Shown here in pieces: positions 6,827 to 62,864 of a stretch of DNA of 64,000 nt. This DNA is from Phycisphaerales bacterium (GTDB lineage Bacteria > Planctomycetota > Phycisphaerae > Tepidisphaerales > Tepidisphaeraceae): assembly GCA_020853095.1 (NCBI GenBank), contig JADYZN010000014.1, positions 62,001-126,000 on the forward strand, read 5' to 3'. The stretch's first letter is position 1; every line of letters starts with the position of its first letter. A program made the translations under genes and the position numbers. The notes under the pieces were generated by a model, which was not told the origin of the DNA, made no database searches, and was given only the letters and a program-made list of their open reading frames with translations.

Positions 6827-9727
6827 TTACCGCTCGCTTGGCCGCAGGGCGTCGGTGGTCAGGCCGTAGGCGACGCCTTCGGGGAGGACGTTCAATGTGA
6901 GGCTGCTTTCATCGTTGGCGGCATCATAGGAGAATCGGAGCGCCGCGAAGAACCGGTCGAACCGCCGGATGATCGTCGCGCTGCTGGAGACGTTGGTCCT
7001 GGCACCAAAATCGAAACTCTGGCTGAGGGCCAGCGAATACTTGGTGCTCAGCTCATAATAAATCGCGGCGGTGGTGATGTTGGAGTGCAGTTCTTCGATG
7101 TAACGGTTGCCCAGGTAATACGACACCCTCGGATCGCGTGAGACCGCCAGCCCGATCGAGGCGGTCGCCAGTTCCCCTTTTTCCCAGTTGTATTGAACGT
7201 CCGACAGCAGCGCGGTGGTGTCGCTGATGCGCCAGGTCATGTCGGCGTTGATGCTCTGACGCGGGATGGAAGCCTCCGGCAGCGACGGGAAAAACAATCC
7301 CCGGAACGATGCCGGCGCCATTTCGCGGTCGGTGGGGCGGTTGGCGAAATAATTGGCTTCGATGTTCAACGTCAGGAAATCGACGCTGCGCCATTTTCCC
7401 GGCCCGCCGCGTTTGGTCTGCCAGCGCTGGTGCAGGGCCATCTGAATGGCCGACACATCCACGATCTTGTCCACATCCTCATCGTAGATGAAGACCTGGT
7501 TGCGGTCGGTGGTTTGCGCGGACGTGAACAGGTGCAACTCCGGTTCGACGACGTGGCGCAGACGATGAACGTCCAGCAGGTCCGACTGGGCGGAATCATC
7601 CACCGCCCAGAACGCGGTCGTCATCCGCATCCCGGCGCCGCCCAGGACGCGGTTTTCCACTTTTCCGGCGGGGCTGTCGCTGTATGCGATGTATCGGCCC
7701 AGGACATACGGGGCGACTTTGAATTCGCCGGCGCTGAACGGGAAGGTCACCTGCTGGCGAAAATCGCCCCGGCCGACGTATTTGTCCGTGTGGCCGGTGG
7801 TCCCGACGGCCGGCATCCCCGGCGACTGGCCCGGCGCGAACCCCTGCTGCAGCAGCGACGCCTCGCTGTCGCGCATCCGCAGGCCGGCCACCGTGTTGTC
7901 GCTGTAGAACGTCAGCGAATCCTGCGCGAAGCTGTCGCCGATGCGGTGATAGCCGATCTCCGGCAGCTTTTCGAGTTCAAACTGCTCCTGCAGATAATCG
8001 GCGTTGGTGACAAAATCGTTGGGCTGGGCCACGATCGCCAGCGTCAGGGCCTCGGTGCCGCGCTGACGTTTGACGTACGCGCTCAGGTCGTGCGGCTGGT
8101 TGGAATAAAAATCACGCTCGAACCATTCTTCCAGAAACGTCGGGTCCGACGCCATGCCGGTGCGCAATTGCACCTGCCAGTCGTCGGGGAAAAAGTGTTG
8201 GTGCATCCACAAAAACCGGCCGCGAATTTCGCGTTTGGGGTCCACGTCCAGTCGATCGGCGCCAAGATCGTCGATGCCGCGGTCGTAGACCACGTAGCCG
8301 GTCATGTTGCCGTTGAAATTCCAGGGGTCGCGGGTGGTGCGGGTGATGAATCCGCCCCCATAACGGGCGTCGATGCCGGTGGCCGGGCCGCGGTCGCCCA
8401 GGTAATCCAGCCGGTAGGCCACGTCCAGGTCCGGCGGGTGCGGCCGGCCGAGGGTTTCAAAAAGCCCCCACTGGGTGCGCGCCCCAAATCCGAACCGGTT
8501 GGAATTTTCCAGTTGAATCTGCCGCAGCGGCGTCCCCTGATCGGTGATCGACCCGCCCACCACCGGCAGGTAGAAAATCGGGACGCCAAAGGTGTTGAAG
8601 GTGGTGTTTTCGGTCCGGAACGTCGAGCGCGGGCCGCCATCGGGCGCGGTGTTGTCCTGGCGGACGTAGGCGCGGTCGGCCTCGATGGAATAGGAGGGCG
8701 TGGCGAACGAACTGGTCGTCAGTTGGACATCCTGTGCGCTGTATTCGCGCAAGCCATCTTCCAGGGCCAACTGCCGGATCGTGCGGGCGCGGACGATGAT
8801 CGGCATCTGCTGCTTGGGATCAATCGTGTGCAACACCGCATCGGTCAGGATGGCCCGGTCGGTGGACAGCTCATAATACGCCCGCTCGGCTTCCAACTTG
8901 GCCTCTCCCTGTGCGGCGTTGGCGGGGGTGTAGATGATCCGCACATCCCCTTCCAGATAAACGGCGGTGATGACGTCGCGCAATTCGGTGTTTTTGCCCG
9001 GTTGAATGGCGTCGCCGGGGCGGTTGAGGGAGGTGAACAGCACCGCCCGCTTGGATTGCAATTCAAGCAGGTCACCTTCCTTGCCCCGTTGATAGAGCGT
9101 GATGCCATCCGGCACGATCACCGCAACGTGCCCCTCGGCCGTGGTCGTCACCTGAAATCGGCCGGGCATTTCAAACGTGACCGGCTCGCCCGCGCCCGAT
9201 CGCCGTCGACTGTTGGCGGCCGGTTCGGTCGGTTGCGAAGCCGCCGGTGCGGTTGTCGGGGAGGTGGTGGGGAGTGGTTTGCCCTCGATGACCGACTGGC
9301 GAACCTCCAGTGCGCGAACGAACGCCGGCGAATCCTTTCGATCCACCGCCAATCTCTGGTCGGCGACAATTCGGATTGACCCCCGGACCGTGGCGGTCAC
9401 GAACAACACCGGCCCGCTTCGGCGGATCGACGATTGTTCCAGCAGGGCATCATCCAGCAAAACCACCTGCACCCGCTGCTGGTCCAGCGACACCCCCTGG
9501 ATCGGCGTCAACCAGATCACCGCCCGGCCGCTGGTCATTTTGGTGCGGTCCAGCTCAATCGTGACCGGGCCGTCCAATTCGACGATGTTGGTTTGTCCAT
9601 CCGTCCAGGTGTAGGCGGTTCGGCCTTGAAGCGTCAGGGACTCGCTGGGGGGCTGGTACTGTCCCCGGACCCGCGCCGGCCAGCACGCGATGGCGAGCAA
9701 TGTCACTGCAATCGCGATTTGCCGCAC
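6827..9727 (-). CDS. lptD: LptD/OstA-like outer-membrane assembly protein
   Basis: About 966 residues. After a signal peptide (hydrophobic core IAIAVTLLAIACW, cleavage after RVRG) come OstA/LptA-like beta-jellyroll segments (TLQGRTAYTWTDG, and EGDVRIIYTPANAAQGEAKLEAERAYYEL). A large beta-barrel follows, with many alternating Tyr/Phe strands (YLPVVGGSITDQGTPLRQIQ; FKVAPYVLGRYIAYSDS). LptD inserts lipopolysaccharide into the outer leaflet. I chose the GTG at 9727, which has AAGGAG 7 nt upstream, over the in-frame TTG at 9766. No partner lptE is visible. Divergence from proteobacterial LptD is considerable, so the substrate is inferred. Confidence 0.8.
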   Translation of the reverse strand: MRQIAIAVTLLAIACWPARVRGQYQPPSESLTLQGRTAYTWTDGQTNIVELDGPVTIELDRTKMTSGRAVIWLTPIQGVSLDQQRVQVVLLDDALLEQSSIRRSGPVLFVTATVRGSIRIVADQRLAVDRKDSPAFVRALEVRQSVIEGKPLPTTSPTTAPAASQPTEPAANSRRRSGAGEPVTFEMPGRFQVTTTAEGHVAVIVPDGITLYQRGKEGDLLELQSKRAVLFTSLNRPGDAIQPGKNTELRDVITAVYLEGDVRIIYTPANAAQGEAKLEAERAYYELSTDRAILTDAVLHTIDPKQQMPIIVRARTIRQLALEDGLREYSAQDVQLTTSSFATPSYSIEADRAYVRQDNTAPDGGPRSTFRTENTTFNTFGVPIFYLPVVGGSITDQGTPLRQIQLENSNRFGFGARTQWGLFETLGRPHPPDLDVAYRLDYLGDRGPATGIDARYGGGFITRTTRDPWNFNGNMTGYVVYDRGIDDLGADRLDVDPKREIRGRFLWMHQHFFPDDWQVQLRTGMASDPTFLEEWFERDFYSNQPHDLSAYVKRQRGTEALTLAIVAQPNDFVTNADYLQEQFELEKLPEIGYHRIGDSFAQDSLTFYSDNTVAGLRMRDSEASLLQQGFAPGQSPGMPAVGTTGHTDKYVGRGDFRQQVTFPFSAGEFKVAPYVLGRYIAYSDSPAGKVENRVLGGAGMRMTTAFWAVDDSAQSDLLDVHRLRHVVEPELHLFTSAQTTDRNQVFIYDEDVDKIVDVSAIQMALHQRWQTKRGGPGKWRSVDFLTLNIEANYFANRPTDREMAPASFRGLFFPSLPEASIPRQSINADMTWRISDTTALLSDVQYNWEKGELATASIGLAVSRDPRVSYYLGNRYIEELHSNITTAAIYYELSTKYSLALSQSFDFGARTNVSSSATIIRRFDRFFAALRFSYDAANDESSLTLNVLPEGVAYGLTTDALRPSER

Positions 9728-9871: not shown

Positions 9872-12700
9872 ATGATTTACCGCATTGACGTTCGCGCTGC
9901 ATCACAGGCCGAAGGCACGGCCGCCGCCGATCCGCTGGGGGAGGCCATCCGCCACCAGATCGAGGAATTTGGCACGCAGGTCGGTTCCATCCGCACCAGC
10001 CGGATTTTTCTGATCGACAGCGATGCGCCGCGGCAGCAGGTGCGAAAAGCCGCGCAGGAACTGCTGGCGGACCCGGTGGTCGAACGGGCCGAACTGATCG
10101 AAAATCCGCCCGCGGATGAGGGGCATTCCCGAATCGAAGTGCATCTGAAACCCGGCGTCATGGACCCGGTCGCGGCATCGACCGAGCTGGCATTGGCGGA
10201 CATGGGCGTGGCGGCCAGGCAGGTTCGCACCGGGCGAGCGTATCTCATCGAAGGAATCATCCCGCGAACCGAGTTGCAGACCATCGCCTCCCGCGTGCTG
10301 GCCAATGGCGTCATCGAGTCGATTCATTTTGAACCTTATATTCCCGATCGGTTTTCGGCAGGCCATCAATACCTCTTCAAGCTCGTTCACGTTTCGTTGC
10401 GCGAACTGGACGATGCCCGGCTGATGAAACTCAGTCGCGAGGGGCACCTGTTCCTGTCGCTGGATGAGATGAAGGCGGTTCAGGATTATTTTCGCGAACA
10501 AAACCGCGAGCCGACCGACATCGAATTGGAAACCCTGGCGCAAACCTGGTCGGAGCATTGCGTCCACAAGACCCTGAAAAGCGCCGTCGAGGTCACGGTG
10601 CAAGATGCCGATGGGCAGCCGGTCGAGACCCGTCGATATGGAAATCTCATCAAGGAGACCATCTTCGACAGCACGATGAAGCTGATGAATCGACCGCGGG
10701 GCGATGAATTTTGCCTGTCGGTCTTCAAGGACAACGCCGGTGTCGTGGTGTTCGATGAGTTGGATGCGGTCTGTTTCAAGGTTGAAACCCACAACCATCC
10801 CAGCGCCATCGAACCGTACGGCGGCAGCGCCACCGGCGTCGGCGGCGTCATCCGCGACATCCTGGGGACCGGCCTGGGGGCGCGGCCGGTCGCCAATACG
10901 GACGTCTTCTGCGTCGCCTATCCCGACGACCGGCGCTCCGGCCTATTGCCAAAGGGTGTCATTCACCCACGCCGGATATTGCGGCAGATCGTCGCGGGGG
11001 TGCGCGATTACGGCAATCGGATGGGGATTCCAACCCTCAACGGCGCGGTCTATTTCGACAATCGGTACATCGGCAACCCGCTGGTCTTCTGCGGATGCGT
11101 GGGGATGATTCCGCGGGATAAAATCGCCAAGGAAGCACGCCGGGGAGATGCCATCGTCGTCATGGGCGGCCGCACCGGACGGGATGGCATTCATGGGGCG
11201 ACGTTTTCCTCGGCCGAATTGACCGACACCCACGCCGATGAGTTTTCCCATGCCGTCCAGATCGGCAACGCCATCACGGAAAAGAAAATGGCGGATGTCA
11301 TCATGGAGGCCCGCGACCAGGGGTTGTTCAGCGCCATCACCGATTGCGGGGCCGGCGGGCTGTCCAGCGCGGTCGGCGAAATGGGTGAAAAAATCGGCGC
11401 GGTCGTCCATCTGGAACAGGTTCCGCTGAAATATCAGGGGTTGCGCTACGATGAAATCTGGATCTCTGAAGCGCAGGAACGCATGGTCCTGGCGGTGCCG
11501 GCGGATTGCGTGGAGCCGCTGTTGAATTTGTCCCGATCCGAGGATGTGGAGGCGACCGTCATCGGGCAATTCGGCACGCCCGGCGAGGAACTGATCCTGC
11601 AATACAATTCCCACGAAGTCGGCCGCCTGGCGATGAAATTCCTGCACGATGGCATCCCTATGCCCACGCGAAAGGCGATTGTTCGACGGCATGGCGCGCC
11701 GGATGAGCCATCGATCGCGTCCCAAAGTGCGGATGCCAGCGCCAATGTGACCGGACGGTTGATTTCGATTCTGAAGCATCCGAATGTCGCCAGCAAACAC
11801 TGGATCATTCGGCAATACGACCATGAAGTGCAGGGTGGATCGGTCATCAAGCCGTTGATCGGACGGCATCAGATCGGCCCCGCCGATGCGGCGGTGATCC
11901 AGCCCAAACTGGGTTCCCATCGCGGCGTCGCGGTCGCCTGCGGCATGGCGCCGCACATCGGCGATCCATATCGGATGGCCATCGCATCCATCGACGAGGC
12001 GGTGCGGAACATCGTCTGCGTGGGGGCGGACCTGGGCAAAATCGCGGTGCTGGATAATTTCTGCTGGCCCAGCGTGGACGATGAAACAACGATGGGCGCG
12101 CTGGTGGCGGCGTGCGAGGCGTGCCGGGATGCGGCGCTGGCCTTTGGCATTCCGTTCATTTCCGGCAAGGACAGCCTGCACAACCAGTTCACCGACCAGG
12201 AGACCGGCCGGGTGATTCGGATTCCCAATACGCTGCTGATCAGCGCCATGGCGGTGCTGGACGATGTGCGGCAATGCGTCACGATGGACCTGAAGGAAAC
12301 CGGCGATGACCGATTGTTGCTGATCGAGCCGGCCGGAACCGGGTTGTCGGATTATCTGGCCGTGCATCGGGCCATCTCGCAGGCCATCGGCAAGGGTCAG
12401 GTGCTGGCGTGTCACGATGTCAGCGAAGGGGGATATTTGACGGCCGTGGCGGAAATGGCGATCGCATCGGGGCTGGGCGCGCGCCTAGACGATGCCCCGC
12501 CGGCCGCGTTGTTCGCCGAGGGCAATGCGCGGTATGTCGTTCAAGCAACCCGTGACGTGGAGGCACAATTGCGTTCATCAGGCGTTTTGGTTCGGCCGAT
12601 CGGCCGGTTGGATGCAAAGTCCAATCACCTGCTGATCGGGCCGGAAAAGATCGGCGTTGACGAACTGACGCGGGCGTGGCGTGGCACGTTGGACTGGTGA
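9872..12700 (+). CDS. purL: Phosphoribosylformylglycinamidine synthase, PurS-PurS-PurL fusion
   Basis: ATP-dependent conversion of FGAR to FGAM in purine synthesis. 942 residues, against about 730 for the small PurL that normally works with separate PurS and PurQ. The extra length is N-terminal: two PurS-like modules (about 1-80, IDSDAPRQQVRKAAQELL; about 86-160, VHLKPGVMDPVAASTELAL). The PurL core starts near 195 and carries TWSEHCVHKTL, VETHNHPSAIEPYGGSATG and a second AIRS-like half with FISGKDSLHN. A separate glutaminase PurQ would still be needed and is not in this window. The ribosome-binding site is weak. Confidence 0.93.
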   Translation: MIYRIDVRAASQAEGTAAADPLGEAIRHQIEEFGTQVGSIRTSRIFLIDSDAPRQQVRKAAQELLADPVVERAELIENPPADEGHSRIEVHLKPGVMDPVAASTELALADMGVAARQVRTGRAYLIEGIIPRTELQTIASRVLANGVIESIHFEPYIPDRFSAGHQYLFKLVHVSLRELDDARLMKLSREGHLFLSLDEMKAVQDYFREQNREPTDIELETLAQTWSEHCVHKTLKSAVEVTVQDADGQPVETRRYGNLIKETIFDSTMKLMNRPRGDEFCLSVFKDNAGVVVFDELDAVCFKVETHNHPSAIEPYGGSATGVGGVIRDILGTGLGARPVANTDVFCVAYPDDRRSGLLPKGVIHPRRILRQIVAGVRDYGNRMGIPTLNGAVYFDNRYIGNPLVFCGCVGMIPRDKIAKEARRGDAIVVMGGRTGRDGIHGATFSSAELTDTHADEFSHAVQIGNAITEKKMADVIMEARDQGLFSAITDCGAGGLSSAVGEMGEKIGAVVHLEQVPLKYQGLRYDEIWISEAQERMVLAVPADCVEPLLNLSRSEDVEATVIGQFGTPGEELILQYNSHEVGRLAMKFLHDGIPMPTRKAIVRRHGAPDEPSIASQSADASANVTGRLISILKHPNVASKHWIIRQYDHEVQGGSVIKPLIGRHQIGPADAAVIQPKLGSHRGVAVACGMAPHIGDPYRMAIASIDEAVRNIVCVGADLGKIAVLDNFCWPSVDDETTMGALVAACEACRDAALAFGIPFISGKDSLHNQFTDQETGRVIRIPNTLLISAMAVLDDVRQCVTMDLKETGDDRLLLIEPAGTGLSDYLAVHRAISQAIGKGQVLACHDVSEGGYLTAVAEMAIASGLGARLDDAPPAALFAEGNARYVVQATRDVEAQLRSSGVLVRPIGRLDAKSNHLLIGPEKIGVDELTRAWRGTLDW

Positions 12701-55184: not shown

Positions 55185-55206
55185 ATGGGCCCGACAAGAT
55201 TCGAAC
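55185..55206 (+). repeat. attL core repeat (3' tRNA-Ile fragment)
   Basis: 22-bp sequence identical to 62790-62811; it reads ATGGGCCCGACAAG then ATTCGAAC. Only the 3' tRNA end (acceptor strand, T-arm part) is here; the rest of the tRNA is missing, so this is the displaced original 3' end. The core is in frame with the 59 codons that follow it. Confidence 0.92.
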
Positions 55207-55386
55207 AGCACTTCACTTTCAACTGAAAAACAGCGAATTCGAGATACGGGCGCAGTAAAAAGCGCAGCAGATTCCGACGATTCGGCCTTCGCTTCGGCGG
55301 TCGCGGCCATCATGACGCTGCCGCTGGATGATCGGGAAAAAGCCGAAGCGGTTCGGAGGCTGTTGGCCGGGAAGGGGGCGGAATGA
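55207..55386 (+). other. Detached integrase C-terminal tail (59 codons)
   Basis: From the core codon frame (TGG GCC CGA CAA GAT TCG AAC, 55186-55206) the reading frame stays open for 59 further codons to TGA at 55384-55386, which overlaps the next gene start as ATGA. Encoded text includes SAFASAVAAIMTLPLDD and REKAEAVRRLLAGKGAE, a plausible amphipathic helix domain, not random translation. In the integrated copy no good start lies upstream (only a TTG at 55159). In the excised circle it would continue the integrase frame exactly, giving 433 + 59 = 492 residues. Confidence 0.75.
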
Positions 55387-55604
55387 GTCTCATCGCCGCG
55401 ATTTACATTCTGCGGGTGGTGTCGTGCTGGTTGCGGGCCGGAACACGGCCATACGCGGCCTCTGGCGGGCGTTTGGTGCGTTGGACGGCCTGCGAGTCTT
55501 TCGGAGTCCAAAACGCATTTAAGGGGCATAAGAACGCGATTAAAGGGCATGTTTGCCAACGGATGACAGGGGATGACCTATCGACAGGGAGCATCCAGCG
55601 ATGA
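55383..55604 (+). CDS. Small unknown protein of the element
   Basis: 73 residues. Starts in an ATGA overlap with the end of the integrase tail frame and ends in an ATGA overlap with the next gene, so it is translationally embedded in a left-end operon. The first 17 residues are hydrophobic (SLIAAIYILRVVSCWL); the rest is basic (GVQNAFKGHKNAIKGHVC). No family recognised. Confidence 0.5.
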   Translation: MSLIAAIYILRVVSCWLRAGTRPYAASGGRLVRWTACESFGVQNAFKGHKNAIKGHVCQRMTGDDLSTGSIQR

Positions 55605-56308
55605 AGCGATCCACGACCCCGAAGAAGGCTGACGACATCGTTGCGGCGACGGCGGATCAGTCATCGCGGCAGATGACCGTAACCATGCCCCGCGACAAGG
55701 CCGGGCGGCGGCGACAGGCCAAGTCGATCTATCTGCGGACGATCGGGGCGAGCATCCTTGAATCGCAGATGTCGCCGATGGTGACGGACAACGGCGCACA
55801 AGCGGCCTTGGTGTTTGTCGAAGCGATGATGGAGTCGATACGACCCCGCAATGCCATCGAAGAAATGCTGGTGCTGCAAATGGCGTGGACCCATGCTCGG
55901 TTGGGCAATCTGTCGTCACTGGCCGGACGACAGGCAAGCGTCGAGGCGGCGAAGATGATCCACGAAGCGGCGGACCGGGCGGCCAACACGTTTCGACGGC
56001 AGATGCTCGCCCTGGCCGACTACCGACGCCCGGCGCGATCGGATGCGTTCGTGGCGATCAAGCAGGCCAATGTGGCTCAACAACAGGTGGTGCAGAATGT
56101 CGAAAACCCAAATTTTCAAACAATCGCAACAAGCGGAGTTGACGCCGGAGCGGCTGGCCCGGTTGCGGCGACACGTTCAGCGCGTCAAGCCCTGGCAATA
56201 CAGCACCGGCCCAAAGACGGCGGCGGGCAAGGCAAAGACAAGGATGAACGGATGGAAGCATGGCCAGCGGAGCGCGGAGACGCGGGCGATGTGGAAGCGG
56301 CTGAATGA
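55601..56308 (+). CDS. Helical protein of unknown function
   Basis: 235 residues. Basic N-terminal 50 residues, then a helical core (QAALVFVEAMMESIRPRNAIEEMLVLQMAWTHAR). Segments such as SVEAAKMIHEAADRAANTFRRQ and DAFVAIKQANVAQQQVVQNVENP resemble unnamed proteins of mobile elements. It starts in an ATGA overlap with the previous gene. Its last 70 codons are overlapped, in another frame, by the gene at 56097, whose product looks better conserved there. The C-terminal part may thus be unconstrained, or a frameshift may join the two. Confidence 0.6.
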   Translation: MKRSTTPKKADDIVAATADQSSRQMTVTMPRDKAGRRRQAKSIYLRTIGASILESQMSPMVTDNGAQAALVFVEAMMESIRPRNAIEEMLVLQMAWTHARLGNLSSLAGRQASVEAAKMIHEAADRAANTFRRQMLALADYRRPARSDAFVAIKQANVAQQQVVQNVENPNFQTIATSGVDAGAAGPVAATRSARQALAIQHRPKDGGGQGKDKDERMEAWPAERGDAGDVEAAE

Positions 56309-56417
56309 GGCGTTGCGGATGCTGCGGGATGAGGATCGGCGAGCGGCGGATACGCTCGTCGGCGCGGCCACGGCGGGCGACTGGATCAAGCGGATCGTGA
56401 CGGAGTTGGAAGCGTGA
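56097..56417 (+). CDS. Small basic protein with TGPKTAAGKA motif
   Basis: 106 residues. Contains RVKPWQYSTGPKTAAGKAKT followed by RMNGWKHGQRS, a pattern (GPKT..GKA.. N..KHG) seen in many short unnamed bacterial proteins, and a helical end DRRAADTLVGAATAGDWIKR. It overlaps the 3' part of the previous gene by 212 bp in the +1 relation. Because the recognisable motif is in this frame, I take it as a real gene. Function unknown. Confidence 0.6.
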   Translation: MSKTQIFKQSQQAELTPERLARLRRHVQRVKPWQYSTGPKTAAGKAKTRMNGWKHGQRSAETRAMWKRLNEALRMLRDEDRRAADTLVGAATAGDWIKRIVTELEA

Positions 56418-56473
56418 AAACGTGGCGGTAAAATTCGCATGATCGGGAAGGCCGGATTGATCCCCGGCCTGAT

Positions 56474-56525
56474 GATCCAGAGGCTTCGAGCCGTTCCTCA
56501 CCTGTCCGGTTTGGGCCTCTGGATC
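56474..56525. repeat. 11-bp perfect inverted repeat
   Basis: GATCCAGAGGC (56474-56484) and GCCTCTGGATC (56515-56525), spacer 30 bp, between the gene ending at 56417 and the likely starts at 56532/56550. Not followed by a T-run, so a leader structure or protein site is more likely than a terminator. Confidence 0.55.
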
Positions 56526-56549
56526 GACCCGATGGAAAGACGGGTGAGC

Positions 56550-57335
56550 ATGTTGGATGATTACACACCCCAAGATGTTCTGAAACTCATTGAGAAACTA
56601 CGCGACCAAGGCGATGAGATCGAGAGGATCGCCAGCGATATAAAGGCGGCGGTGTCGGGCGATGACGCGGCGGTAGAGGCCGGGAAGCGATTGAGCGGCC
56701 CGGAGGAATGGGCGAAGATCGAGGCCGCCCATGCGAAAGCGAAGCGAAGCGGCAAGCCATTTGACGCGGGGCTGCTGAATGGAGCGTTCGCCGGATGGGA
56801 GACAAAATTCATCGCCGCGATTGTTGCCGTTGGGCAGAGTTATCGAGCGCTGGCATCCGCGGCGGCTCACTTCGGGTTTGATTCTTCTCCGTTCGCGGTA
56901 TCCGACCGCATCGCCGAATTGACGGCGGCGGGGCATCTGAAGGCTGATCGCAATGATGGGAGTAACGGGTATATATCGGCCCGGCGCATCTGGACGGAAT
57001 TTCTCCGCGATGCGCCCTTCCCGGAAGATGCCGCGCTGAAGTTGGAAGCGGACATGAAGCGGCGGATCGAGGAGGCGAAACAATCGCCCGCGATCAAGAA
57101 TTACGCCAAAGAGGCGAGATCAAAGAAACAACGGCTGGGCCGCGCCTCCGTGGACGCCGGAGAATCGCGCAAGAGACACGGCATTCTTGCGAAATACCAT
57201 AAGCGGAAGGGAGTGCAGCAAAAGGTATTTTGTGAACAAGAGGGTATCAGCCTGGCCTACCTGCAAAAATGCCTGGCATGGGGCGGCATGCGCAAAACCC
57301 GAAGCGCTAACAAAATACCGTCAAGCACCAAATGA
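56550..57335 (+). CDS. Unknown element protein with HTH-like C-terminus
   Basis: 261 residues from the ATG at 56550; in-frame ATGs exist at 56532 and 56439, but the inverted repeat at 56474-56525 argues for a downstream start. N-terminal coiled-coil-like helix (DVLKLIEKLRDQGDEIERIA), a middle part with Gly/Ala helices (FIAAIVAVGQSYRALASAAA), and a basic C-terminus in which QQKVFCEQEGISLAYLQKCL looks like a helix-turn-helix. Could be a regulator or replication accessory protein. No family recognised. Confidence 0.55.
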   Translation: MLDDYTPQDVLKLIEKLRDQGDEIERIASDIKAAVSGDDAAVEAGKRLSGPEEWAKIEAAHAKAKRSGKPFDAGLLNGAFAGWETKFIAAIVAVGQSYRALASAAAHFGFDSSPFAVSDRIAELTAAGHLKADRNDGSNGYISARRIWTEFLRDAPFPEDAALKLEADMKRRIEEAKQSPAIKNYAKEARSKKQRLGRASVDAGESRKRHGILAKYHKRKGVQQKVFCEQEGISLAYLQKCLAWGGMRKTRSANKIPSSTK

Positions 57336-57462
57336 TTTGTTATTTAGTTTCTCGGCATTTCCGACATTCCGTGACTTTCCTAGGTAATTCGGCTTATTTC
57401 CTGTCAGATGGGGTGCACTAACAAAATACGCCATCATTTGTTAGCCATTGTTAATTGTTAGC
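57307..57462. repeat. Cluster of TAACAAA/TTTGTTA-type repeats
   Basis: CTAACAAAATAC occurs twice as a direct repeat (57307-57318 and 57418-57429); the opposite orientation occurs as ATTTGTTA (57335-57342), ATTTGTTAG (57436-57444), ATTGTTA (57447-57453) and ATTGTTAGC (57454-57462). They fill the 144-bp AT-rich gap before the excisionase-like gene and suggest a regulator or Xis binding region. Confidence 0.6.
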
Positions 57463-57479
57463 GCCCATAAAAAGTGGGC

Positions 57480-57740
57480 ATGAATACTTTCACTCATGCC
57501 GCCAGCGGGCAAGCTGGACCGGAGACCGCGCCGGGAGTCAACGCGGAACTGCTCGACGTAAATACCGTGGCGAACCTTCTCGATTGTTCGCCAAGGCACG
57601 TCACACGATTAAGCGATACCGGGCGAATGCCGCCGCCTCGTAAACTTGGCGCGCTGGTGCGATGGAGCCGCCGGGAAGTGATGAACTGGATCGCTTCGGG
57701 GTGCCCCGCGGTGCAGAGCGAAGGGAGGGCCGGGCGATGA
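57480..57740 (+). CDS. Excisionase-like HTH (helix-turn-helix 17 type) protein
   Basis: 86 residues. MerR/excisionase-type winged HTH in the second half: LLDVNTVANLLDCSPRHVTR, then LSDTGRMPPPRKLGALVRWS and REVMNWI, the classical pattern of DNA-binding excisionases. The start is ATG 57480; a GTG at 57474 is in frame. It overlaps the next gene (ATGA). It is likely the recombination directionality factor or a regulator that binds the repeats just upstream. Confidence 0.82.
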   Translation: MNTFTHAASGQAGPETAPGVNAELLDVNTVANLLDCSPRHVTRLSDTGRMPPPRKLGALVRWSRREVMNWIASGCPAVQSEGRAGR

Positions 57741-58192
57741 CCATCTGCGAAGCACAAAGCGAAGGGGAGAGGCGGAAGCGGGAGGGCATGGACCTGGCAG
57801 CGATGCACAAGCAGCGCGCCATCCGGTGCGGCCAGTTGGCGATGCTGGCGGCGGGTTTGTCGCGGCAAAGCCGAACATGCAGCGCAAACGATATGCCCGA
57901 TGACCTGGGCGTTAAGTACGCCAATGGTGGTAAATGGGTTGGATCGGCGGTGCTGGGCCTGTCCCGATGTGGCATCACCGAAAAGGCGGGCCACACCGAA
58001 TCGCTTCGGCCTGCCCGTCATTGTGGCGACCTAAAGCTCTGGCGAATCATAGACGTGGCCAAAGCCGCCGCGTTCATCCGCCAGTGCCGCGACTGGCTGG
58101 CACGCAACCCGCCGCCGGAACCATCGCCCGAAACCCCGTTCGATTATGAGCCAAATAAAACACCCGGCGCTGGAACGCCGGGCACACTCTGA
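57737..58192 (+). CDS. Unknown element protein
   Basis: 151 residues from the ATG at 57737, in an ATGA overlap with the excisionase-like gene. Basic N-terminal helix, then GKWVGSAVLGLSRCGITEKAGH and a helix DVAKAAAFIRQCRDWLARNP, then a Pro-rich tail. The Cys residues do not form an evident metal site. No family recognised. A GC hairpin (CCCGGCG/CGCCGGG) overlaps its 3' end but has no T-run. It leads directly into the replication genes. Confidence 0.55.
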   Translation: MTICEAQSEGERRKREGMDLAAMHKQRAIRCGQLAMLAAGLSRQSRTCSANDMPDDLGVKYANGGKWVGSAVLGLSRCGITEKAGHTESLRPARHCGDLKLWRIIDVAKAAAFIRQCRDWLARNPPPEPSPETPFDYEPNKTPGAGTPGTL

Positions 58193-58205
58193 AGGATTTT
58201 GACAA

Positions 58206-58772
58206 ATGAATGATACCAAGAATCCGGGCGTACCGCGCCCAAAATTATCGGATATTCTCAATGGCGGGACCGACGCCCTGCGCAATGCGTGGAACAGCGC
58301 CGATGCCGCCGATGATTTCAAGCTGCTGCCGAGGGGGGAGTACGTCGCCCACATCATCAGTGGCCAGTTGACCAACAGCAGCAGCAAAGGAACGCCCGGC
58401 TACAAGCTGGCATTCAAAGTGATCGAGGGCGAACACGCCGGGCGAATGTTCTGGCACGACATCTGGCTAACCCCGGCCGCGATGAGCATGGCCAAGCGAG
58501 ACCTGGGCAAGCTGGGCGTCACATCCCTTGAGCAATTGGAATCGCCGCTGTCGCCGGGCATCCGCTGTAAGGTGAAGCTGGTCATCCACACCGCCGACAA
58601 TGGTAACGAGTACAACCGGGTGAAGTCGTTCGACGTGCTGGGGATCGACAAAGCCGAAGCCGATCCGTTCGCGCCGACGGATGATGACGCACCGGCGGGC
58701 GATTCGGGGAATTATGCGCCGTCGATGTTCCCACCGTCCGGCCCAAGGGAGGGCTTACCCGATGCACACTGA
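58206..58772 (+). CDS. DUF669-type protein (phage replication-associated)
   Basis: 188 residues. Matches the DUF669 layout: PRGEYVAHIISGQLTNSSSK, GYKLAFKVIEGEHAGRMFW and DIWLTPAAMSMAKRDLGKLG, then VKLVIHTADNGNEYNRVKSF. An acidic Pro-rich tail follows, similar to the tails of single-strand-binding proteins. Members lie in replication modules of phages next to primases and helicases and are thought to act like SSB. Its end overlaps the primase start by 11 bp, so they are coupled. Confidence 0.8.
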   Translation: MNDTKNPGVPRPKLSDILNGGTDALRNAWNSADAADDFKLLPRGEYVAHIISGQLTNSSSKGTPGYKLAFKVIEGEHAGRMFWHDIWLTPAAMSMAKRDLGKLGVTSLEQLESPLSPGIRCKVKLVIHTADNGNEYNRVKSFDVLGIDKAEADPFAPTDDDAPAGDSGNYAPSMFPPSGPREGLPDAH

Positions 58773-59760
58773 AACCGATTGCAAATACGGATTCCGCATC
58801 GTCGGGCCATGCAGCGGCGAACGGCGGTTGATCGACGCCGCCGCCGCGTTCAACGCCTACGCCGTTTGCGATGATCGCGCCGACGTGGGCAAGGAAGCCT
58901 ATCTGTCGGCGTTCTGGTTCGGCGATGACTTCCGGTCCCACCTCATCGCCAGCGGCTCCACAAAGGGCTTTACGGGCGTCTGCTGGACGCCTTGGCTTTG
59001 GTGGGACATCGACAACACCGGCAACGTGGAACAGGCCCGCATCGACGCCGCCAAGCTGGCCAATGGGCTGGTCGAGAAATACGCCCTTGATGAAGATGAT
59101 CTGCTGATTTTCTTCAGCGGTTCCAAGGGATTTCATGTTGGCTTGCCGACTTCGATCATCGCCAACGCCGCGCCGTCGGCGATCTTCAGTCGCATTGCCA
59201 AGACGTTTTGCCAGCAATGGGCGTCAGCGACCGGCATTACGATTGACAGCGGCGTTTACGATCAAGTGCGGGTGTTCCGCGCCCCCAACAGCCGACACCC
59301 CAAAACCGGCCTGCACAAACGACAGGTGACGCTGGCGACGCTGATGGAGTTGAACGCATCCACCATCGCCAAGCTGGCCGAAAACCCTGAAGTGTTCGAG
59401 ATACCCGGCACGACGGCCAGCACCAAAAGCGACTGGAACCCATCCGCCGATTGGAACGCCGCCGCCGATCTGGTGCGGCAACAGGATGAAGCGAAGCAAC
59501 AGCGGCGGGAAGCCGTCGCCGCCGGATCAACCGCCGCGACGTTGAACCGCCTGACGCTGAATTTCATCCGCGATGGAGCGGCCCAGGGGGATCGGCATCG
59601 GTTGTTGTACTCCGCCGCCCGCAATCTGGCGGAGTTTGGATGTCCGCCGCCGCTGGCCCATGCCCTGCTGACCGAAGCGGCCTTGGATACCGGCCTGCCG
59701 CCCAAGGAAGTGCATCGGCAAATCGAGTGCGGCCTGTCCGATGGAGGATTAACCCGATGA
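58762..59760 (+). CDS. Archaeo-eukaryotic-type primase (small element primase)
   Basis: 332 residues from the ATG at 58762, with AAGGGAGGG upstream. The AEP core is visible: catalytic DxD in WLWWDIDNTG near residue 82, SGSKGFHVGLP near 119, and a third acidic site with DSGVYDQVRVFRAPNSRH. The C-terminal third (TAATLNRLTLNFIRDGAAQG; HRLLYSAARNLAEFG) looks like a PriCT-type helical domain. Primes DNA synthesis of the element, probably with the ATPase that follows it in an ATGA overlap. Confidence 0.85.
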   Translation: MHTETDCKYGFRIVGPCSGERRLIDAAAAFNAYAVCDDRADVGKEAYLSAFWFGDDFRSHLIASGSTKGFTGVCWTPWLWWDIDNTGNVEQARIDAAKLANGLVEKYALDEDDLLIFFSGSKGFHVGLPTSIIANAAPSAIFSRIAKTFCQQWASATGITIDSGVYDQVRVFRAPNSRHPKTGLHKRQVTLATLMELNASTIAKLAENPEVFEIPGTTASTKSDWNPSADWNAAADLVRQQDEAKQQRREAVAAGSTAATLNRLTLNFIRDGAAQGDRHRLLYSAARNLAEFGCPPPLAHALLTEAALDTGLPPKEVHRQIECGLSDGGLTR

Positions 59761-60701
59761 ACGCACCCAAAGCCAACTACCGCGCCGGATCGGATGTGCT
59801 GGAATCGTGGCGTGATGATGTCCTGTCGGGCAATCCGCCGGTGATCTGGCCCATCGGTTCGGGCGCTCTGGCCAACGTCGAAATCGGGCCGGGTCGCGTC
59901 CTGCTGATCGGCGGCGCGCCCGGCTCCGGCAAGACCGCCTTCATAATGCAGGGGATCATCGACGCCCTGCGCATCACGTCGTCGCTTCGGGTGGTGGTCT
60001 GCAATATCGAGATGTCGACCGGCGTGCTGCTGGATCGCCAGTTGTCACGGCTGGCGGGCGTCGATCTGACCGCGATCATCCGCCGCAAGCTGACCGAAAA
60101 GCACGCCGACCGGATCGACCAGGCGATGAACACGCTTCAGAGCGTGGCCGACCGTATGGCGTTCGTGGGCGGACCGTTCGATCTGGAGAATGTCGCCGCC
60201 ACCGTCGATGATTTCGGGGCATCATTGATCGTGCTGGACTACATCCAGCGTATCGCGCCGCCGGGCAAACACGACAGCCGGCGCGGATCGGTCGATGCCA
60301 CCATGAACTATCTCCGCCAATTCGCCGACGCCGGTATGGGCGTGGTCGTGGTGTCGGCGGTAAGCCGGGCGAAGGATGACAAAGGACGAAGCAGTTACAC
60401 GGGATCGGGCTTGAACTTGGCATCGTTTCGCGAATCTTCGGAACTGGAATTCGGGGCCGATGACGCCTTCATCATTCACCCGGCCGACGATGACGCCGAA
60501 GGGGATGCGGTGACGCTCAAGCATTTGAAAAGCCGTCATGGCCAGTGCCGTGACATTGCCCTTACGTTTGATCGTCCGCATCAATCCTTCACGCCTACAG
60601 GCGACGATCCATCGCGCCGTCAACAATCGGGGCTGAAGGCCGATCTGCAAAAGATGTGGAACCGCACCGCCGCCGCCGGGGAGGATGACGATGAGCAATG
60701 A
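59757..60701 (+). CDS. DnaB/RecA-like replicative ATPase of the element
   Basis: 314 residues from the ATG at 59757 (ATGA overlap with the primase). RecA-fold core: Walker A GGAPGSGKTA near residue 51, a Walker B-like segment SLIVLDYIQRIAPPG, and GMGVVVVSAVSRAKD (sensor strand typical of DnaB C-terminal domains), then ADDAFIIHPADDD. No N-terminal DnaB domain is present, so this is a helicase-core-only version. Acts as helicase or loader for the element. It overlaps the next gene by 11 bp. Confidence 0.85.
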   Translation: MNAPKANYRAGSDVLESWRDDVLSGNPPVIWPIGSGALANVEIGPGRVLLIGGAPGSGKTAFIMQGIIDALRITSSLRVVVCNIEMSTGVLLDRQLSRLAGVDLTAIIRRKLTEKHADRIDQAMNTLQSVADRMAFVGGPFDLENVAATVDDFGASLIVLDYIQRIAPPGKHDSRRGSVDATMNYLRQFADAGMGVVVVSAVSRAKDDKGRSSYTGSGLNLASFRESSELEFGADDAFIIHPADDDAEGDAVTLKHLKSRHGQCRDIALTFDRPHQSFTPTGDDPSRRQQSGLKADLQKMWNRTAAAGEDDDEQ

Positions 60702-61131
60702 ACCCCGCATCCTGCCCGGCTGCACCGTGCTGCCGCCGATGGAGGATAATACGCCGCGCCCACCACGATCATCGGCAGCACCACCGAAGGGAAGGAATCG
60801 CAAAGGGGACCGCCGAAAGACCGGTGACCGCTTCGGTGTGCTTAATGCGTTCGTCGATGCGGGGCTGGCCGATCTGACGCGCACCGAGGCGTTGACGTGG
60901 CTCGTCCTCTACCGCGACACTCGCAACGGCACCGCCCGCACCAGCGCGGCCGACATTGCCCGGCGAATCGGAGCCAGCAAACGGGCGGTGCTGTCGGCCA
61001 TCGGAACGCTGCAACAACAGGGGCAGGTCAAGCGAATTTATCGGGGTGGAATGAACCGGGGCGTGTCGGTCTACAGCGTCCATTCAACGCCGAAAATGAT
61101 GGGGAACAAGGTGAAGCCAGCTTCACCTTAA
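60691..61131 (+). CDS. Winged-helix replication/regulatory protein of the element
   Basis: 146 residues from the ATG at 60691 (GGGAGG six nt upstream). A basic Pro-rich N-terminus, then a winged helix: LTRTEALTWLVLYRDTRNGT, SAADIARRIGASKRAVLSAI, GTLQQQGQVKRIYRGG. Similar to the helix-turn-helix parts of phage replication initiators. The first 18-bp palindrome of the iteron array lies inside its last codons, which suggests autoregulation or origin binding. It overlaps the ATPase gene by 11 bp. Confidence 0.7.
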   Translation: MSNEPRILPGCTVLPPMEDNTPRPPRSSAAPPKGRNRKGDRRKTGDRFGVLNAFVDAGLADLTRTEALTWLVLYRDTRNGTARTSAADIARRIGASKRAVLSAIGTLQQQGQVKRIYRGGMNRGVSVYSVHSTPKMMGNKVKPASP

Positions 61132-61197
61132 CGGGTGAAGTGGGCTTCACCAGGCAGGTGAAAAAAGCTGTCATTTACAGGTGAAGTGGGCTTCACC
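61110..61197. repeat. Iteron-like array of 18-bp palindromes
   Basis: Three near-identical 18-mers of form GGTGAAG-NNNN-CTTCACC at 61110-61127, 61134-61151 and 61180-61197; a degenerate fourth copy starts at 61157 (GGTGAA conserved, GCT conserved). Starts are spaced 24, 23 and 23 bp. The array lies across the stop codon of the winged-helix gene and is a candidate replication origin or operator array of the element. Confidence 0.75.
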
Positions 61198-61219
61198 TAT
61201 CCCATAAGGGACCATAATA

Positions 61220-61258
61220 GCGTACTCGCATATTATGCGTCCCGCATATGGAGTACGC
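61220..61258. repeat. Nested palindromes upstream of the XRE gene
   Basis: GCGTACTC (61220-61227) and GAGTACGC (61251-61258) form an inverted repeat. Between them sits the 13-bp palindrome CGCATATTATGCG (61227-61239). AT-rich and non-coding. Possible regulator, arm-type integrase or origin site. Confidence 0.55.
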
Positions 61259-61267
61259 AGAAAAGAC

Positions 61268-61305
61268 TTGACGCGGTGTCGATTATAGTGCATAGTTGGC
61301 AACTA
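61268..61305 (+). promoter_or_regulatory. Promoter and palindromic operator of the XRE-integrase unit
   Basis: TTGACG (61268-61273), 17-bp spacer, CATAGT (61291-61296). The 13-bp palindrome TAGTTGGCAACTA (61293-61305) overlaps the -10 and abuts the XRE start codon, a typical autoregulatory site. This is the best promoter for xre and int. Confidence 0.55.
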
Positions 61306-61509
61306 ATGAAAAACAGCCAGAGCATGACGGCGGTTTTACTCAAGGCGATCAAACAGAGTGACCAATCGCTCTACGCCATCGCCAAGGCGACGGGTATGCA
61401 AAAGACAGCGCTGGGGCGGTTTGTTTCGGGCAAGCAATCACTTCGATTGGACTTCGCCGACAAGCTGGCATCGTATCTGGGGCTGGAACTGGTGAAGAAG
61501 GACAGGTGA
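61306..61509 (+). CDS. XRE-family HTH regulator
   Basis: 67 residues from the ATG at 61306. The Cro/C1-type helix-turn-helix fills the protein: LLKAIKQSDQSLYAIAKATG, MQKTALGRFVSGKQSL, RLDFADKLASYLGLELVK. It stops 3 bp before the integrase gene, so both are transcribed together. It is likely the repressor or switch of the element that controls integrase and possibly, in the circle, the genes beyond the attachment site. Confidence 0.88.
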   Translation: MKNSQSMTAVLLKAIKQSDQSLYAIAKATGMQKTALGRFVSGKQSLRLDFADKLASYLGLELVKKDR

Positions 61510-61512
61510 AGC

Positions 61513-62817
61513 ATGGCATCGGTTGTGAACTACGACGACGGTTTGAAGCGGATCGAATTCGCCTACGGCCCACGTCAACCCCGCAAGACAATCCGACTGG
61601 GGCGCGTCAACGCCAAGGTGGCCGCGTCATGGCTGGCCAAGGTCGATGCGATGATCGCCGACAGGCTGGCCGGGCGCCCGCATGACGCCGAAGTGTCGAA
61701 GTGGCTTGGCGATCTGGATGAATCCATGCTCGCCCGCCTTCGGGCTGTCGGGCTGGCCGACGGCGTGGGGCTGTCGCAAACGACACTGGGGGAGTTTCTG
61801 GAAAAGTATTTCGCCGCCATGACCGCCAAGCCGGGAACCCGGCTGGCCTATGGGCATGTTCGCAAGAACCTGCTGGGATACTTCGGAGCAACCAAATCGG
61901 TACGCGCCGTTACCACTGCTGACGCCGACAACTGGCGGGCGTGGCTTGTGGAGCATGAAAAGCTGTCGCCCGCCACGGTGTCACGACGCACAGTTGCTGC
62001 CCGCACCATCTGGCGCAAGGCGGTTCGGTGGAACATCGCCCGCCGCAATCCCTTCGAGGGCATCCGAGCCGGGCATCAATCCAACGAGAGCCGCAAGCGG
62101 TTCATCACCCGCGAAGTGATCGACGCCATCATCGAACACACCCCCAGCGCCGAATGGCGGGCGATTATCGCCCTGGCCCGCTACGGCGGCCTGCGCTGCC
62201 CATCGGAGATTTACGCCTTGCGGTGGGGTGATATCGACTGGGATCGGGGAACGATCCGCGTCCCATGCCCGAAGCTGGAATATCTGGACGGCCACGGCTA
62301 TCGGCTTGTGCCGCTGTTCCCGGAACTCCGCGAACACCTGCTGGCCCTGTTCACTGAATCACCCGAAGGGGCGGAATATGTCATCAGTACATGCCGACAA
62401 GGCGCGATGAACCTTCGGACACAATTCGAGCGACTTATCGCCCGTGCCGGGCTGACGCCCTGGCCCAAGCTGTTTCACAATCTTCGGGCAAGCCGGGAAA
62501 GCGAACTAATGCGGGAATACGATCTGGCCACCGTCTGCAAGTGGATCGGCAATTCGCCCGCCGTCGCCGCCAAACACTACGCCATGAGCGTCGATCTGGA
62601 CGCCGATTTCCGCCGCGCCACGGGCTTGGAACAGGCGCAGCAAAAAGCGCAGCAAATTGCGCAGCAGGCAGCGGAAAGCAGCGATGGTCAGGAAATGACC
62701 TTTACCCCCTCATTCAACGAAAAAACCCCCGAAACCGGGGGTTTGGTCGATCCCTGTCTATTGTCGCTAAATGCCGACAAAACAAGGGGATGGGCCCGAC
62801 AAGATTCGAACTTGTGA
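61513..62817 (+). CDS. int: Tyrosine recombinase (integrase), truncated at the att site
   Basis: 434 residues. N-terminal arm-binding part, SAM-like core-binding domain (about 92-185; TTLGEFLEKYFAAMTAKPGT) and catalytic domain with the first Arg in YGGLRCPSEIYALRW near 226, HNLRASRESEL near 322, and the Tyr in AAKHYAMSV near 356. After residue 380 the tail is low-complexity (QQKAQQIAQQAAE). The last codons cross the attachment core (GWARQDSN) and stop at TGA one codon later. The sequence at the other end of the element continues the same frame for 59 codons, so the protein is probably longer in the excised circle. Confidence 0.93.
   Translation: MASVVNYDDGLKRIEFAYGPRQPRKTIRLGRVNAKVAASWLAKVDAMIADRLAGRPHDAEVSKWLGDLDESMLARLRAVGLADGVGLSQTTLGEFLEKYFAAMTAKPGTRLAYGHVRKNLLGYFGATKSVRAVTTADADNWRAWLVEHEKLSPATVSRRTVAARTIWRKAVRWNIARRNPFEGIRAGHQSNESRKRFITREVIDAIIEHTPSAEWRAIIALARYGGLRCPSEIYALRWGDIDWDRGTIRVPCPKLEYLDGHGYRLVPLFPELREHLLALFTESPEGAEYVISTCRQGAMNLRTQFERLIARAGLTPWPKLFHNLRASRESELMREYDLATVCKWIGNSPAVAAKHYAMSVDLDADFRRATGLEQAQQKAQQIAQQAAESSDGQEMTFTPSFNEKTPETGGLVDPCLLSLNADKTRGWARQDSNL
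62720..62744 (-). terminator. Intrinsic terminator for tRNA-Ile, embedded in the integrase gene
   Basis: Arms 62723-62731 and 62736-62744 (9 bp, loop AAAC). Read on the minus strand the stem runs into six T residues, 46 bp beyond the 3' end of the tRNA. On the plus strand no T-run follows. It lies inside the integrase reading frame, so it belongs to the element. Confidence 0.75.
62790..62811 (+). repeat. attR core repeat (within tRNA-Ile and integrase)
   Basis: Identical over 22 bp to 55185-55206. It forms the 3' end of the intact tRNA-Ile gene on the minus strand and codons 426-433 region of the integrase on the plus strand. Confidence 0.92.
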
Positions 62818-62864
62818 CCTCGTCCTTATCAGGGACGCGCTCTAACCAACTGAGCTACGAGCCC
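62791..62864 (-). tRNA. tRNA-Ile (anticodon GAU)
   Basis: 74 nt, minus strand. Acceptor GGGCTCG/CGGGCCC (one G-U), D arm GCTC/GAGC, anticodon stem CGTCC/GGACG with loop CTGATAA (anticodon GAT), T arm ACAAG/CTTGT with loop TTCGAAT, discriminator A. CCA is not encoded. The 3' part is supplied by the integrated element, which restores the gene. Confidence 0.97.

Follow-up and report, generated by a model that had tools for sequence, protein, structure and literature searches.

A 7.6-kb element located at the 3′ end of a tRNA-Ile gene carries its attachment site within the reading frame of its own integrase gene, and comparison with related elements shows that integration strips a conserved tail from the C-terminus of the enzyme, which excision must bring back. 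Four observations, all made by comparing sequences, show this: the layout of the element ends, its recurrence among relatives, the constraint acting on the tail codons, and the contiguous genes of free relatives. We consider it probable that these features belong to one device, in which an attP made up of coding DNA throughout lies in the element's lambda-like integrase gene, the tail is severed there, and the form of the enzyme reflects the integrated or excised status of the element.

The element and its two ends

The source genome comprises 3.6 Mb on 77 contigs. Within the window, by which we mean the whole stretch of 64,000 nucleotides that was analysed, the element is delimited by two copies of the 22-bp repeat ATGGGCCCGACAAGATTCGAAC. 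The relevant features are the following.

55185–55206, unstranded: left core copy (attL), 22/22 identical with the right copy
62790–62811, unstranded: right core copy (attR), within the int frame and the 3′ end of tRNA-Ile
62791–62864, minus strand: tRNA-Ile(GAT), the integration target, detected by ARAGORN, antisense to the 3′ end of int
61513–62817, plus strand: integrase gene in its integrated (short) form, 434 aa, PF00589 tyrosine recombinase with lambda-Int-like layout
55207–55386, plus strand: integrase tail, 59 codons followed by TGA, in frame with int and contiguous with it in the circle only
55285–55368, plus strand: conserved distal tail AFASAVAAIMTLPLDDREKAEAVRRLLA, a predicted two-helix hairpin (helices of the L195 model; pN/pS 0.23 against L076)
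55383–55604, plus strand: 73-aa ORF, ATGA overlap with the tail stop, no homologues in the fetched loci
55601–56308, plus strand: 235-aa ORF, ATGA overlap with the 73-aa ORF, no homologues in the fetched loci
61306–61509, plus strand: 67-aa Cro/C1-type HTH protein directly 5′ of int, homologues in 43 fetched loci

The tRNA gene runs leftwards and the integrase gene rightwards onto its antisense strand. The codon frame is the same in both repeat copies. On the right, the integrase ORF crosses the core as GWARQDSN and is terminated after a single Leu codon by the TGA at 62815, while on the left this frame stays open for 59 codons past the core. Its stop codon (TGA, 55384–55386) overlaps the ATG at 55383 as ATGA, and a second overlap of this kind (55601–55604) joins the 73-aa to the 235-aa ORF. 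Joining the element ends creates an ORF of 492 codons. The shared frame of the repeat copies, the 59-codon tail with its ATGA overlap and the 492-codon ORF had been noted in the initial annotation and were all re-found, every coordinate given there being correct.

The integrase contains a tyrosine recombinase catalytic domain (PF00589, E 9e-10), which is complete in the integrated form, and matches the phrog_1 integrase family with E 1.4e-36. In the alignments of the integrase family the R, W, G and Y columns of the catalytic domain are invariant. A predicted model of the homologue L195 has full-length lambda Int as its nearest solved structures (1z1b being the nearest fold), and its alignment with 1z1b and 1z1g points to an N-terminal arm-binding domain. 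Besides int, the window harbors HTH_17, primase-, DnaB- and DUF669-like genes, and no terminase or capsid gene was found in it.

Two further observations concern the tRNA locus. A hairpin (AAACCCCCGAAACCGGGGGTTT, 62723–62744) resides inside int shortly 5′ of the core and is followed by a T run on the minus strand; it may thus be the element that provides the restored tRNA-Ile gene with a terminator. An empty tRNA-Ile site was not seen in the sister species G001, whose left flank lies on another contig. In this species a decayed integrase end (…GGWARQDSNL, L262 at about 8540–8740) adjoins tRNA-Ile, left over from a similar element that occupied this site.

Recurrence of the layout and constraint on the tail

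Homologues of the integrase were present in 72 of 101 relative genomes. Named relatives belong nearly all to the Planctomycetota, and no homologue was detected at E 1e-5 in named phage and plasmid collections. In a non-identical set of 202 homologues from genomes and viral contigs, at least 108 terminate antisense within a tRNA or tmRNA gene, with 26 target types. A tree of 196 sequences contains a clade of 130 that includes the window's integrase, with 97 members ending in a tRNA or tmRNA and six contiguous free forms. About a dozen of the 130 stop before the tRNA or are devoid of both tRNA and tail, some of them perhaps through decay; others are cut by contig ends. The relatives are not independent, and counts are given here instead of a probability.

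An upstream core copy was detectable in 31 integrated elements, that of the window included. All 31 possess an open tail in the int frame, and the tails are homologous. In the subset of 28 whose core measures 16 bp or more, between 41 and 135 open codons (median 60) follow the left core in the int frame; the medians for the remaining two frames are 18 and 22.5 codons. Counted at these positions, 41 or more open codons were found in 28/28 int frames versus 18/56 of the others. At the right end of these elements the int frame stops a median of about five codons past the core. The codon phase of the core varies: of the elements for which both ends were observed, 23 use one phase and 4 another, phase 1 being that of most elements and phase 0 that of the window's group, and the third phase occurs in the free form L195. 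Since the tail is in the int frame under every core phase observed, frame continuity itself has been kept. Because dozens of planctomycete relatives share this layout, coincidence seems a poorer explanation than a built-in switch. L146 carries tail-like sequence (10183–10500) that overlaps the end of int but is read in a different frame; this copy is possibly frameshifted or decaying.

Coding constraint on the tail, for which a check across relatives had been proposed, was evident against L076, an element at tRNA-Leu whose integrase is 60% identical. The distal 28 codons share 21 of 28 residues and gave a pN/pS of 0.23 in the int frame, compared with 0.85 and 2.15 in the shifted frames. For the same pair the catalytic domain gave 0.32 and the linker just 5′ of the core 0.75; pS is near saturation in this comparison, so that all these ratios are rough. 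The values indicate that the distal tail is as constrained as the catalytic domain. One group of elements (L041, L047, L048, L055 and L056) has shortened tails under weak constraint, with pN/pS between 0.6 and 0.96.

Free relatives with a long integrase were also sought. An HMM derived from left-end tails only matched the C-terminus of contiguous integrases from viral contigs (L200, L195/L196, L190/L191, L198, L183 and, weakly, L192), and at least six free or phage contigs carry integrase and tail in a single frame. The contigs L192 (7,355 bp) and L193 (7,437 bp) possess exact terminal repeats of 69 bp and 123 bp, respectively, which mark them as closed circles of about 7.4 kb. In L192 an unbroken enzyme of 505 aa reads straight through attP into the tail, and in L193 the int gene spans the closed ends. 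Integrases of free relatives stopping before or at attP, or a tail free of coding constraint, had been named beforehand as speaking against a C-terminal swap; free relatives read into the tail and the tail is constrained in the int frame, so that neither was found and the swap proposed in the initial annotation is strongly supported.

Apart from the tailed integrase, L192 contains genes for a terminase small subunit, a prohead protease, an HNH protein, a DnaB-like and an HTH_17 protein, and by its gene content looks like a phage satellite. In L115 (2–1147 and 10001–11308) tandem elements reside at tRNA-Glu. Here the integrase of the upstream element continues into the tail that belongs to the downstream one, and thus a tandem copy regains the long form within the chromosome. 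L079, a candidate for a contiguous gene, was rejected, as it terminates at tRNA-Val and hence represents an integrated copy.

The attP region and the proposed switch

Repeats resembling arm-type sites are located on both sides of the core.

62634–62671, plus strand: putative arm-type tandem 12-bp repeats, int side, GGCGCAGCAAAAAGCGCAGCAAATTGCGCAGCA, 15/16 match to the tail-side copy
55249–55272, plus strand: putative arm-type repeats, tail side, GGCGCAGTAAAAAGCGCAGCAGA, matching the int-side copy

In the window GGCGCAGCAAAAAGCGCAGCA lies 156 bp 5′ of the core and GGCGCAGTAAAAAGCGCAGCA 42 bp 3′ of it, and the match of 15/16 compares with a shuffle maximum of 13. Repeats on both sides of the core beat all 15 shuffles in 9 of 17 elements; they are element-specific in sequence and alike in position. 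We read them as arm-type sites. With such sites on either side of the core and inside the frame, the entire attP would be coding. AlphaFold, given 36 sequences for the integrase of the free form L195, produced a model (mean pLDDT 82) with a confident enzyme up to residue 377, a disordered linker (378–455) including the core, and two helices beyond it (463–474 and 477–489). According to this model attP is predicted to sit in a disordered linker that is followed by a two-helix hairpin.

On this basis the following course of events is proposed. In the circle, the enzyme would consist of the catalytic part, a disordered linker bearing attP and the conserved two-helix tail. When the circle recombines with the 3′ end of the tRNA gene, the int gene would be severed in the linker; the integrated copy would end one to a few codons into the antisense tRNA, with the tail codons at the opposite end, and excision would reunite them. 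Integration from the circle is probably the task of the tailed form. The tail-less form made afterwards is probably altered, most likely with reduced activity or stability, in line with reports on Mx8 (see below). With a long form in the circle and an altered short form once integrated, the state of the enzyme would mirror the integrated or excised status of the element. The observations are compatible with a switch that acts on activity, stability or directionality, and Mx8 provides a precedent for it.

An unlikely though not negligible alternative is that the layout serves compactness only: arm sites were recruited into the int coding sequence, the tail aids folding or stability, and both forms act alike. 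The linker, being disordered and holding the arm repeats, is a tolerant place for DNA sites, and certain tails are short and weakly constrained. However, arm sites need no conserved hairpin beyond attP, the hairpin is kept in frame across differing core phases and many tRNA targets, and Mx8, which has the same arrangement, exhibits activity differences.

We regard it as highly improbable that the tail is kept mainly to couple, in the circular form, the translation of the left-end genes to that of int. Coupling of these genes to the int promoter had been suggested initially, and for the window it is plausible, given the ATGA overlaps at 55383 and 55601. As a general reason for the layout it did not hold up, since a stop-start overlap at the tail exists in only 9 of the 31 elements. 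Furthermore, the left-end ORFs are not conserved, coupling does not require a conserved peptide, and several of the 31 elements already look strongly tail-constrained without a downstream gene. Finally, although antisense tRNA 3′ ends often yield spurious peptides (e.g., xxLEPxT or RQDSN) and 59 open codons alone are fairly frequent by chance at 60% GC, a chance open frame over the tRNA 3′ end with no coding meaning was rejected as having virtually no likelihood, because the frame is open in 31/31 elements, the tails are homologous, the distal tail has a pN/pS of 0.23, and contiguous free forms exist.

Comparison with known systems

The arrangement described here has several counterparts. In the integration-dependent immunity of mycobacteriophages, integration swaps the C-terminal codons of the gene carrying attP; there this gene encodes the repressor, whereas here it encodes the integrase. 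The archaeal suicidal integrases (SSV, pTN3, pT26-2) likewise have attP inside the integrase gene (PMC8371274), but their N-terminal part is split from the catalytic part, resulting in two inactive pieces, while here only the tail is lost. Thus, the analogy to fuselloviruses drawn in the initial annotation applies to the position of attP and is otherwise loose; splitting of the fusellovirus type was rejected, the catalytic domain being whole in the integrated form. In streptococcal ICEs inserted in rumA, attR lies inside the integrase gene and the excised form has another C-terminus (PMC4701971). These enzymes differ in that they belong to the serine recombinase family and are not tRNA-targeted.

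The closest likeness is to myxophage Mx8 (and Mx9), in which a tyrosine integrase also carries the attP core inside its reading frame. Integration of Mx8 creates a new int 3′ end and changes the specificity (PMC6070905); the last 112 residues give way to 13 others, and the resulting enzyme has lower activity (PMC4701971). In both systems a long element-encoded C-terminus is exchanged for a short host-encoded one (59 codons versus one in the window, medians of 60 versus about five among its relatives). Mx8 Int likewise reads through a GLEP-type stretch, and the 67-aa Cro-like gene 5′ of int (61306–61509) resembles in its position uoi, annotated as excisionase, 5′ of Mx8 int. Homology to Mx8 Int was looked for and not found: the profile scored 2 bits and the tail 0.3 bits, and tblastn gave no match in phages. 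As Mx8 Int is not recognisably related, the resemblance is one in working principle and not proven descent. Unlike Mx8, the elements described here have a hairpin tail conserved across the clade and putative arm repeats flanking the core in frame at either side, and they use many different tRNA and tmRNA genes as targets. For a further step we see even chances: that in this large planctomycete lambda-like clade, independently of Mx8, severing and rejoining of the hairpin acts as an in/out sensor setting the direction of recombination, and that the location of attP in a disordered linker lets the switch move along with the integrase to new tRNA and tmRNA targets.

No planctomycete case of attP inside int was found in the literature searched. 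In the clade, which spans many planctomycete families and many tRNA types, this arrangement is the norm. It provides long and short integrases in natural pairs, with which the control of recombination direction by a C-terminal tail can be studied. The layout also allows attP to be predicted and the true full-length protein to be recovered from integrated copies, in which only the short, tRNA-truncated form is visible. Very few elements have been reported to carry an attachment site within the integrase gene (PMC4701971). While the principle is known from these cases, the clade-wide conserved tail and the apparently fully coding attP are new here.
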